Shown piece by piece: positions 10,364 to 14,051 of a DNA stretch of 64,000 nucleotides (position 1 is the stretch's first letter; each line of letters starts with the position of its first letter). A program made the position numbers and the translations under genes. This DNA is from Candidatus Moanabacter tarae (GTDB lineage Bacteria > Verrucomicrobiota > Verrucomicrobiia > Opitutales > UBA2987): positions 1,110,211-1,174,210 of the forward strand of contig CP029803.1 in NCBI GenBank assembly GCA_003226295.1. The letters run 5' to 3'. The notes beneath the pieces are model-generated. The model saw nothing but the letters and a program-made list of their open reading frames with translations, ran no database searches and was not told the origin of the DNA.

Positions 10364-11158
10364 ATGCTCAGTCCACTTCACGTTGAACCACTGTATATAG
10401 CGGATCGGAAATTTAGATCCCGCCTTATGGTAGGGACAGGAAAGTTTGCTTCTAACGAGCTTATGCGCGATGCGCTTGCTGTTAGTGAAACAGAGTTGGT
10501 TACAGTCGCTCTAAAACGCGTAAATCTCAAATCTGAAAAGGATCCTTTTGCCAATATCCTTGAATACCTAGAAACCGATCGCTACATGGTTTTACCCAAT
10601 ACAGCCGGCGCAATGAATGCTGATGAAGCTGTAAGGATTGCCCGGCTAGCTTTAGCTGCTGGGTTACCTAACTGGGTAAAACTCGAAATCCACCCTGACC
10701 CCAACTATCTTCTTCCAGATCCAATCGAAACTCTTGAAGCAGCAAAGACACTCATCAAGGAAGGATTTGTCGTACTCCCGTACATTAACGCCGATCCTGT
10801 GCTAGCAGCGCGTCTACAAGATCTAGGCTGTGCTACTGTTATGCCTTTGGGTTCCCCCATCGGTAGCAATCTTGGCATCCAAACCAGAGCCCAAATTGAA
10901 ATCATTATAGAACAGGCAAGAGTCCCGGTGGTAGTGGACGCTGGGATCGGCTTACCTTCCCACGCTACCGAGGCGATGGAAATGGGGGCCGATGCCGTTC
11001 TAGTTAATACAGCTATTGCAATCGCAGATGATCCCCTTCAAATTGCACAAGCTTTTGCCGTTGGGGTTCAAGCTGGATGGGTTTCTCGTCACCTCGGAAA
11101 AAGCGACGCTTCTCTAGGAGCGCAGCCGACAAGTCCTTTAACCTCATTTCTTGACTGA
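10364..11158 (+). CDS. thiG: Thiazole synthase ThiG
   Basis: A 264-residue TIM barrel, normal ThiG length. It shows [14 protein letters not shown] at the N-terminus, [37 protein letters not shown] with the probable Schiff-base Lys106, [13 protein letters not shown], and [20 protein letters not shown] near the phosphate site. ThiG joins 1-deoxy-D-xylulose 5-phosphate, dehydroglycine (made by ThiH) and sulfur carried on ThiS thiocarboxylate to form the thiazole of thiamin. thiH starts three bases after the stop, so the genes are in one operon. Confidence 0.97.
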
Positions 11159-11161
11159 TCG

Positions 11162-12313
11162 ATGGGGTTTTCAAAGTTACTACCGTCCCTCCCTATCGAG
11201 GAACTTGTGCAACGTTCGCTGGAGTCAAATCCCCACCATGTTAACAACATCCTTAAAAAGGGAAGAGCTGAATCACTTGAGGAATTTGCGTCCTTGATCT
11301 CACCTGCCGCCCTCACTCACACTGAAGCCCTAGCGCGAGTCTCCCAGAAAATCACTAACCGCCAATTTGGGAAGGTAATTCGACTCTTTGCACCGATCTA
11401 TCTTTCCAACGAATGCATCAATATTTGTCGGTACTGCGGATTTTCCAGAGATGTTGATATTCCGAGAATCACAATATCGGTAGATCAATTCCTTAAAGAA
11501 ACCCGACTACTCTCAAGCCAAGGATTCCGTTCACTTCTCATTGTCGCGGGGGAACATCCAAAGTATGTATCTAATGGATATGTTGAAGAGTGTATTCGAA
11601 AGTGTCTCCCGTTTATGCCCAGCATTCTTCTCGAGCTAGGACCTCTTGAGACCGAAGACTACCGGCCCATTGTAAAGGCAGGGGCCGAAGGCTTGGTTGT
11701 CTACCAGGAAACATACCACAAACCCACCTACTCTCAGATGCATCCGGCTGGCCCAAAGAAAAAATACGGTTGGAGAGTAGATACAGCAGAGCGGGCTTAC
11801 GATGCTGGGTTTCGTCGAATAGGGATCGGTCCACTACTCGGCCTTTACGATTGGAGATACGAGGCAATAGCACTAGCCGCTCACGCCCGATACCTGTACC
11901 AACATTGTTGGAAAGTACACCTCACAATCAGCCTACCGCGGCTAAGGCCTGCGTCTGGGAATTTCCAAACCAAGAACCAATATCAGTTACAGAATCAAGA
12001 ACTCGTCCAGTTAATCTGTTCCCTCAGAATGCTTCTACCTCACGTAGGGATTGTGCTTTCAACTCGGGAATTACCAAATCTAAGAGACGGTCTTGTGCGG
12101 ATAGGAATCACCAACATGAGTGCTGGTTCCAGTACCGAGCCGGGAGGCTACAGTCATTTCGATACCAATTCCTGGAAGCGAGTCGATGAACAACCAGGGG
12201 AACAATTTCATATTGCCGACGAACGTTCCCCCGGAGAAATCGCCGACATGATTCGAAGTCAGGGCTACGAACCGGTCTGGAAGGATTTCGATCAGGCCTT
12301 GGTTTCCAGTTAA
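11162..12313 (+). CDS. thiH: 2-iminoacetate synthase ThiH (radical SAM)
   Basis: A 383-residue radical S-adenosylmethionine tyrosine lyase. The cluster-binding motif is CINICRYC (Cys85, Cys89, Cys92), and the family features LELGPLETEDY, GLVVYQETYH, GPKKKYGWRVDTAERAYDAG and RIGIGPLLGLYDWRYE follow. ThiH cleaves tyrosine to p-cresol and dehydroglycine, the amine source for the thiazole ring. Presence of ThiH, not the oxygen-dependent glycine oxidase ThiO, indicates the oxygen-sensitive route. It sits between thiG and thiS. Confidence 0.97.
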   Translation: MGFSKLLPSLPIEELVQRSLESNPHHVNNILKKGRAESLEEFASLISPAALTHTEALARVSQKITNRQFGKVIRLFAPIYLSNECINICRYCGFSRDVDIPRITISVDQFLKETRLLSSQGFRSLLIVAGEHPKYVSNGYVEECIRKCLPFMPSILLELGPLETEDYRPIVKAGAEGLVVYQETYHKPTYSQMHPAGPKKKYGWRVDTAERAYDAGFRRIGIGPLLGLYDWRYEAIALAAHARYLYQHCWKVHLTISLPRLRPASGNFQTKNQYQLQNQELVQLICSLRMLLPHVGIVLSTRELPNLRDGLVRIGITNMSAGSSTEPGGYSHFDTNSWKRVDEQPGEQFHIADERSPGEIADMIRSQGYEPVWKDFDQALVSS

Positions 12314-12337: not shown

Positions 12338-12622
12338 ATGGGAAAACGGGAACAGATAGAGGGAAGCGACCATATCGAGATTTTTGCAAACGGAGAGTCG
12401 TTCAACTTGGAAAAGGGAACTTTGTTGCCTGATTTTATTGAATCTCTGAATCTTGACCTAGACAGGGTAATAGTCGAACTCAACAAAGGAGCTCTCTCCC
12501 CAACAGAGGCTACCAATATTGAGCTCAAAAGAGGTGATATCCTAGAGATCGTTAGGATTGTGGCTGGGGGCATGACATCTAGGTCCTTAGTTACTAAGGG
12601 TTCAAATCCTAATGAAATCTGA
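12338..12622 (+). CDS. thiS: Sulfur carrier protein ThiS with residues after the Gly-Gly
   Basis: A beta-grasp sulfur carrier: IEIFANGESFNLEKGT, LNLDLDRVIVELNKGALS and RGDILEIVRIVAGG match ThiS. The family normally ends exactly at this Gly-Gly because the terminal Gly is adenylated by ThiF and turned into a thiocarboxylate. Here the frame runs 17 codons past it, beginning MTSRSLVTKG, giving 94 residues against the usual ~66 (with a slightly long N-terminus as well). A TGA directly after GGC exists one base out of frame at 12573-12575, so a one-base insertion or base-call error could explain the tail; the alternative is proteolytic removal of the tail. Position after thiG-thiH supports the identification. 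Confidence 0.9.
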   Translation: MGKREQIEGSDHIEIFANGESFNLEKGTLLPDFIESLNLDLDRVIVELNKGALSPTEATNIELKRGDILEIVRIVAGGMTSRSLVTKGSNPNEI

Positions 12623-12692: not shown

Positions 12693-14051
12693 ATGAGGCT
12701 CGTTGACCTCAACACCGTAGGAGGTATTGGAGCTAATTCTATTTTTGTTGAACTAGGGCCTTTCCGGTTTGTGATCGACGCGGGAATGCACCCTAAGTTA
12801 TCAGGAAATCGCGCTCTTCCTGATTTTCGTCAGCTGAAAGATCTAACGCTTGATTTTGTTCTTCTTACACACTGCCACCTTGACCACCTAGGAGGACTAC
12901 CAGTTCTAATGCGCTACCAGCCTGATACCTGCGTGTTTTCTAGTACTGCCTCAAAAGAAATTGCTCCCAGAATGCTGCTCAACTCATGCGCAGTCATGAA
13001 ACGTCAGAAATTTGAATCTGGAATGTCCGAACTCCCGCTCTACTCCCGTAAGGAAGTACGGAACCTGAACAATCGCATCATGCCCGTACCCTATAACCGT
13101 CCCTATGTGTTTTATGCACATGGGGATAAGATTGTATTCAATTTCCAACCGGCCGGCCACGTTGTAGGTGCATCCGGTGTGATCATCAGTTATAAAAATC
13201 GTAAGATTTTAATTACAGGGGACGTTCTTTTTGCACCGCTAAGAACTCTTTCGGGAGCTCAATTTCCAAGAGGGAATATCGACACCCTCATTATGGAAAC
13301 AACTCGTGGCATGACTGAGCGGACATCAAGTTTCGATCGTGAGAGCCAAATTGACGCACTAATCTCCACCCTCGATAAAGGCCTCGGGAAAGGAGGATCG
13401 GTCCTAATTCCGGTTTTCGCTTTTGGCAGGATGCAAGAAATCCTCTCCCTGATCTCAGAAGCCCGTTCCAAGGGAAAGCTTCGCCATAGCCCTATCTACG
13501 CTAGTGGTCTTGGTATAGACCTAGCCAAAATGTTTGACTCTATTTCGAGAAAGACAGGATTAGTGAATTTCCGAAAACGCTTGTTTAAAGAGCTTCAAGT
13601 CCAACCCCTGCCGCGCAATCTTGAAACAGGCAAGTTGCCGACCCCAAATAGCCTCTATGTCCTGAGCAGCGGAATGCTGGTAGAGAATACTCCTTCCTAT
13701 AAAATAGCTGCCTCCCTTCTCGATAATGGAAAAAATACGATTTGTTGGGTAGGCTACTGCGATCCTGATACCCCTGGTGGGCGTCTCCTCGCCGCTAAAC
13801 AAGGCGATCTTTTTCCCTTTGATTCACTTAACTTCGAGTGTCGTATTAAGGCGCAAATCGAAAAATTTGATCTGAGCGGGCATGCAGATAGGGAGGAGCT
13901 TGTACAGTTCGCATTGGATATCAACCCTCGGGTAATCGTATTGACCCATGGCGAAGAGACAGCTCGGAATTGGTTTAGAAATTCCTTTAAAGAGTTAATT
14001 CCACGGACAAGAATTGTGGATCCAGAACCTCTTGAATCATACGTGGTTTGA
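12693..14051 (+). CDS. Beta-CASP metallo-beta-lactamase-fold hydrolase (likely RNA processing)
   Basis: A 452-residue protein with the metallo-beta-lactamase motif LLTHCHLDHLGGLP (His60, His62, Asp64, His65), a further His in FNFQPAGHVVGASG, and Asp in ITGDVLF. The inserted beta-CASP domain follows (VLIPVFAFGRMQEIL, PIYASGLGIDLAKM) and the C-terminal LSGHADREELVQFA and VIVLTHGEE carry the late His ligands. This is the CPSF73/KseA-like RNA nuclease group, predicted to cleave RNA with two zinc ions. It follows thiS by 70 bp on the same strand; no functional link to thiamin synthesis is known, so shared transcription may be incidental. Confidence 0.9.
   Translation: MRLVDLNTVGGIGANSIFVELGPFRFVIDAGMHPKLSGNRALPDFRQLKDLTLDFVLLTHCHLDHLGGLPVLMRYQPDTCVFSSTASKEIAPRMLLNSCAVMKRQKFESGMSELPLYSRKEVRNLNNRIMPVPYNRPYVFYAHGDKIVFNFQPAGHVVGASGVIISYKNRKILITGDVLFAPLRTLSGAQFPRGNIDTLIMETTRGMTERTSSFDRESQIDALISTLDKGLGKGGSVLIPVFAFGRMQEILSLISEARSKGKLRHSPIYASGLGIDLAKMFDSISRKTGLVNFRKRLFKELQVQPLPRNLETGKLPTPNSLYVLSSGMLVENTPSYKIAASLLDNGKNTICWVGYCDPDTPGGRLLAAKQGDLFPFDSLNFECRIKAQIEKFDLSGHADREELVQFALDINPRVIVLTHGEETARNWFRNSFKELIPRTRIVDPEPLESYVV

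Follow-up and report, generated by a model that had tools for sequence, protein, structure and literature searches.

A tailed ThiS of Candidatus Moanabacter tarae as a probable substrate of a JAMM protease encoded in a distant cysteine operon

Sulfur carriers of the ThiS family need a free C-terminal glycine. Processing of bacterial sulfur carriers by JAMM proteases is known for carriers encoded next to their protease and for carriers fused to their partner. In the QbsD/QbsE and HcyD/HcyS pairs, whose carrier and protease genes are adjacent in one operon, the JAMM protein takes off short tails that follow Gly-Gly. The passages of PMC4443979 on HvJAMM1 describe cleavage of SAMP1-MoaE after Gly, which is needed for the function of the fusion in vivo, and those of PMC8832034 on DRJAMM describe a similar cut in MoaD-MoaE. 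In Streptomyces platensis, the relevant sections of PMC6006322 report one JAMM protein (PtmS1) and four carriers, two capped after Gly-Gly (PtmS2 and PtmS3) and two uncapped; deletion of the JAMM gene abolishes the product, whereas deletion of one capped carrier does not. QbsD is named in section 7 of the same paper. Iyer et al. 2006 (PMC1779556), in the parts of that article dealing with these operons, defined an operon type 4c composed of genes for a ThiS/MoaD-like protein, an E1-rhodanese protein, a JAB protein and cysteine synthase, proposed that JAB proteins release fused ThiS or MoaD, and reported no JAB gene within thiamine or molybdenum cofactor (Moco) operons. In the open literature, as distinct from subscription papers and including passages of PMC2948915, we found no case of a ThiS from a thiamine operon being trimmed by a JAMM protein encoded elsewhere.

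The locus described here lies in a window of 64,000 nucleotides, the whole stretch of Candidatus Moanabacter tarae DNA that was analysed. On its forward strand, thiG (10364..11158; PF05690, E 7.9e-103) is followed by thiH (11162..12313; TIGR02351, 406.8 bits, cut-off 380) and thiS (12338-12622, contig position given as 1122548-1122829), giving the gene order thiG-thiH-thiS. The β-grasp core of ThiS, residues 1-78, is encoded at 12338..12571 (+) and matches PF02597 as well as TIGR01683 (49.8 bits, cut-off 37.45), with the last model position aligned to residue 78; the core is neither truncated nor degraded. Its Gly-Gly is formed by codons 77-78 (GGG GGC, 12566-12571). An initial sequence-only reading had observed that the frame runs 17 codons past this point, and the translation agrees: the tail MTSRSLVTKGSNPNEI (12572..12622, +) comprises 16 sense codons, beginning ATG ACA TCT and ending ATC, and an in-frame TGA at 12620-12622. 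The translated protein of 94 residues therefore has residues after Gly-Gly, as in capped carriers, and a free C-terminal Gly-Gly would exist only after cleavage. A structure predicted from the single sequence was too poor for use (mean pLDDT 43.6). Downstream of thiS, a β-CASP metallo-β-lactamase family gene (12693..14051, +; PF00753, PF10996, PF07521) bounds the tail region and is outside the mechanism proposed below. The same neighbourhood, judged only from the frames right after thiS, occurs in some other members of the order (L007, L014, L025 and L033).

A TGA lies one base out of frame after GGC, as had been pointed out, at 12573..12575 (+), and is a possible former stop codon. The first stop 3' of Gly-Gly is thus 1 nt away in frame +1, and in frame +2 it is 8 nt away. 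With TGA in the +1 frame immediately past GGC, a +1 slip of the ribosome after that codon would bring it into frame and end the protein normally. Against such recoding, slippage at the G5 run fails to produce Gly-Gly followed by a stop, the arrangement is absent from every relative read, and the fold of the tail region is no better than that of shuffled sequences (z 0.40); we give this explanation next to no weight. The tail region contains no tRNA according to ARAGORN, no RNA family in Rfam beyond two chance-level matches at E up to 10, and no repeat, the stretch being single-copy in the genome. With these results and the unremarkable fold, the tRNA-like look of 'GGTTCAAATCC' was dropped as an explanation. 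Relatives were also sought in viral contigs, and none were found there.

A ThiS search of 273 genomes of the order produced 54 rows in 52 genomes, including that of Moanabacter itself. Among the 53 other rows, one is cut by a contig end (L030) and one is a partial match at a contig end (L012); these two stand outside the count, and the 51 that could be read to a stop all end exactly at Gly-Gly, with GGC-TGA as a common gene end. Judged by these sequences, the ThiS tail is therefore an oddity of the Moanabacter genome within its order.

Four PF02597 carriers are encoded in the Moanabacter genome: ThiS, MoaD, a CysO-like domain fused through its Gly-Gly to a MoeZ-type E1 with rhodanese, and a carrier (L051) that ends GGG without a tail and scores as SAMP1/MoaD-like, not ThiS. 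The gene for a second MoeZ-like E1 with rhodanese and no carrier domain lies at L049:5659-6846; it is possibly the E1 for ThiS or MoaD. MoaD, a protein of 112 residues, is encoded in a normal moa cluster (L050:5086-5424, minus strand) and also carries a tail, of 28 residues after VAGG. In the same 273 genomes, the MoaD search gave 85 rows in 83 genomes. Apart from one fragment, which is outside the count, the other rows (83 of 84) were read and end at Gly-Gly, 82 of them intact and one (L059) after an internal stop, and the 28-residue tail is unique among the MoaD sequences read in the order. In the L059 gene (genome G265), an in-frame stop interrupts MoaD ahead of a normal VAGG terminus, a sign of an error or of a pseudogene. 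The off-frame stops nearest to the end of Moanabacter moaD are 29 and 37 nt away, and this tail therefore cannot stem from a one-base change near the gene end.

The sequence-only reading had proposed looking for a JAMM-type protease gene elsewhere in the genome, and one is indeed present. The single Prok-JAB (JAMM/MPN+) protein of Moanabacter (PF14464, 81 bits, 147 amino acids) is encoded at contig position 893590-894030, over 200 kb away from thiS. Its gene is flanked by a cysM-like gene and the CysO::E1-rhodanese gene and, among carrier genes, adjoins CysO::E1 only. The metal-binding motif of the protein is complete, with E24, H85, H87, S95 and D98 invariant in 8/8 aligned sequences, and its profile matches solved JAMM/MPN structures (best 2kcq, 6.2e-42; chain 5lda 'JAMM1', 1.7e-11). 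Named genomes yielded eight relatives, from a Kiritimatiellae bacterium, four Gemmatimonadales, two Thermoplasmata and one 'bacterium', and among the matches listed cysM, JAMM and CysO::E1 are grouped in several of the eight. The Kiritimatiellae CysO::E1 is 70% identical to that of Moanabacter. Base composition gave no convincing sign that the cys operon had been transferred recently (GC 43.3% versus 41.9% in its neighbourhood).

In a single-sequence search of the 273 order genomes, JAMM matches were obtained in three, a strong one in Moanabacter only (E 2.7e-100) and two at about 1e-3. Two independent tails, on ThiS and on MoaD, thus coincide in the one genome of the order with a strong JAMM match. 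The initial reading had held that trimming would be refuted if all related ThiS proteins ended at Gly-Gly. They do so throughout the order, but since these relatives have no strong JAMM match, their exact ends fit the protease reading and do not refute it.

The same data bear on a sequencing or assembly error, which would have placed one extra base after GGC in a thiS that really ends at Gly-Gly. The off-frame TGA exactly one base past GGC is what such an error would leave, GGC-TGA is frequent among the relatives, and by chance alone a stop is expected at that frame position in about 5% of cases (3/64 codons). However, the extra base lies outside a homopolymer, and altering the G5 run would not bring back a stop right behind Gly-Gly. 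Likewise, 20/20 other window proteins scanned with Pfam matches show no sign of a broken frame, and the error would leave the MoaD tail, with its nearest off-frame stop at 29 nt, in need of another cause. Both tails occur in the genome with the JAMM, and neither the MoaD tail nor the JAMM hinges on the base in question. We consider an error unlikely. The ThiS tail probably goes back to a real mutation that added one base at the former stop, and to that extent the suggestion in the sequence-only reading of a one-base error or mutation may well be right, with error the less likely form; its corollary that the gene is spoiled finds no support.

Inactivation of thiS by such a mutation, with thiamine obtained otherwise or with another carrier such as the GGG-ending one serving ThiG, would agree with the need of the ThiS family for a free C-terminal glycine and with the existence of an uncapped carrier. 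It would also agree with three members of the same taxonomic family (G001-G003) that have no ThiH match; no ThiS match was found in them either. On the other hand, thiG and thiH are intact with good family matches, the ThiS core is kept to its last residue, the GGG-ending carrier does not score as ThiS, and the genome has a JAMM. Loss of thiS function is accordingly rated very unlikely. The 16 extra residues, which would be expected to block the carrier, are probably not fatal in a genome that has a second capped carrier and a protease of the type known to remove such caps.

The association of tails with JAMM proteins was examined across the phylum. Of 387 phylum genomes searched with a JAMM profile, 29 gave a match at E up to 1e-6. 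PF02597 carriers were then surveyed in 71 genomes, consisting of 26 of these 29 (Moanabacter included), 7 named JAMM-positive genomes and 38 JAMM-negative genomes, and the C-termini of 119 rows were read. Within 5 kb of a JAMM gene, all carriers of the phylum sample (26/26) have a tail or a fused domain after Gly-Gly, including L183, which was counted as linked because a second JAMM gene lies beside it. Tails were found on 11/51 unlinked free-standing carriers in JAMM-positive genomes (9/49 without Moanabacter) and on 0/163 in JAMM-negative genomes, the latter being 51 ThiS and 82 MoaD of the order, whose genomes were classed by the single-sequence JAMM search, and 30 carriers from the 71-genome survey. 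The unlinked class includes L158, whose JAMM gene is on the same contig but more than 5 kb off, and L193, which lies beside an E1 gene with the JAMM gene on another contig. Three carriers lacking Gly-Gly at the end of their match (L234, L216 and L238), long-fusion rows, and rows without a stop inside the stretch read stand outside the tail counts. With Moanabacter excluded and relatedness ignored, the Fisher p value for 9/49 versus 0/163 is 1e-6, and 4e-6 when one HcyS-like row is also dropped. Restriction to the 71-genome survey weakens the statistics, to p 0.01 for 9/49 versus 0/30 and, per genome, p 0.004 for 8/25 versus 0/21, relatedness again being ignored.

Among the unlinked tailed carriers, ThiS before thiG is found in G371 and G536 (tails RA and GE) and MoaD before moaE in G325, G476 and G563 (tails of 31, 4 and 1 residues). 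Thus, tails in ordinary thi or moa clusters are seen repeatedly in JAMM-positive genomes of the phylum, in five besides that of Moanabacter. The 31-residue MoaD tail (L316; G325, contig C74) is rich in His and Thr. On contig C12 of the same JAMM-positive genome, ThiS and ThiG form an in-frame fusion (L315, a frame of 352 amino acids), which would also need cleavage. Two further carriers are of unusual form: L150 (G378) is HcyS-like (FMGGG), fused to an E1 and encoded beside a JAMM, and L234, from a JAMM-negative genome of 0.9 Mb (G323), ends in TAGR in place of Gly-Gly.

Against a role of the JAMM, 40/49 unlinked free-standing carriers in JAMM-positive genomes other than Moanabacter still end at Gly-Gly, and the fourth carrier of Moanabacter itself, ending GGG, has no tail. 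That most unlinked carriers in JAMM-positive genomes need no trimming would suit removal of the tail by another protease, or by general C-terminal trimming, with the JAMM protein incidental; but no unlinked tail turned up outside JAMM-positive genomes, and we regard such a bystander role as highly improbable. Trimming of the tail by a protease is the better of the two explanations offered initially. It is supported by the JAMM gene of the genome, by the second tailed carrier, MoaD, and by the confinement of unlinked tails to the JAMM-positive genomes sampled. We therefore put the probability that ThiS is a capped precursor trimmed in trans by the JAMM of the cys operon at roughly 0.7.

Compared with QbsD/QbsE and HcyD/HcyS, in which carrier and protease genes are adjacent, thiS and the JAMM gene of Moanabacter are far apart. 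The proposed cleavage would resemble that by DRJAMM and HvJAMM1, as presented in the passages of PMC8832034 and PMC4443979, in that a MoaD-type carrier is cut behind its Gly by a JAMM protein, which is required for a working molybdopterin synthase; in those systems, however, the part removed is a functional partner rather than an unrelated tail, and the substrate is not ThiS. The PtmS1 system, in the relevant sections of PMC6006322, likewise combines one JAMM with four carriers, two capped and two uncapped, but its caps are 1-2 residues long and its carriers serve a natural product, whereas the tails here have 16 and 28 residues and belong to thi and moa carriers. The cysM-JAMM-CysO::E1 operon shares its components with type 4c as outlined in PMC1779556, and differs in the fusion of CysO to E1 and in the proposed targets of its JAMM, which include thiamine and Moco carriers from other loci. 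As in the operons described by Iyer et al., no JAB gene lies within the thiamine and Moco operons of Moanabacter; this weighs against the proposal, and the link exists only in trans.

In the proposed pathway, ThiS would be made as a capped precursor with its tail after Gly-Gly, and the JAMM protein would cut behind Gly-Gly to free the C-terminal glycine. An E1-like enzyme would then adenylate this glycine and turn it into a thiocarboxylate for ThiG. The same JAMM would release CysO from its E1 fusion and take off the 28-residue MoaD tail. Cleavage of both ThiS and MoaD by this protease is inferred from genome content and sequence. As the protease would act in trans, exact stops on thiS and moaD would become dispensable. 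We give an even chance to a wider proposal, in which a single JAMM, gained or kept with the cysteine operon, became a shared maturation step for cysteine, thiamine and molybdenum cofactor. The thiS and moaD stops could then drift, and loss of the protease would be barred. Such a neutral ratchet of dependence would have turned in several lineages of the phylum, leaving the long tails of MoaD, the tails of ThiS and the ThiS::ThiG fusion.

If trimming in trans is correct, thiamine and Moco carriers encoded in their own operons would depend on a protease from a distant cysteine operon. Tails on ThiS or MoaD would then be no annotation errors but predictors of a JAMM in the same genome. A JAMM could also be essential in pathways without any annotated JAMM, and the locus would offer a clear test case for the loosening of a strictly fixed gene end by a trimming enzyme.
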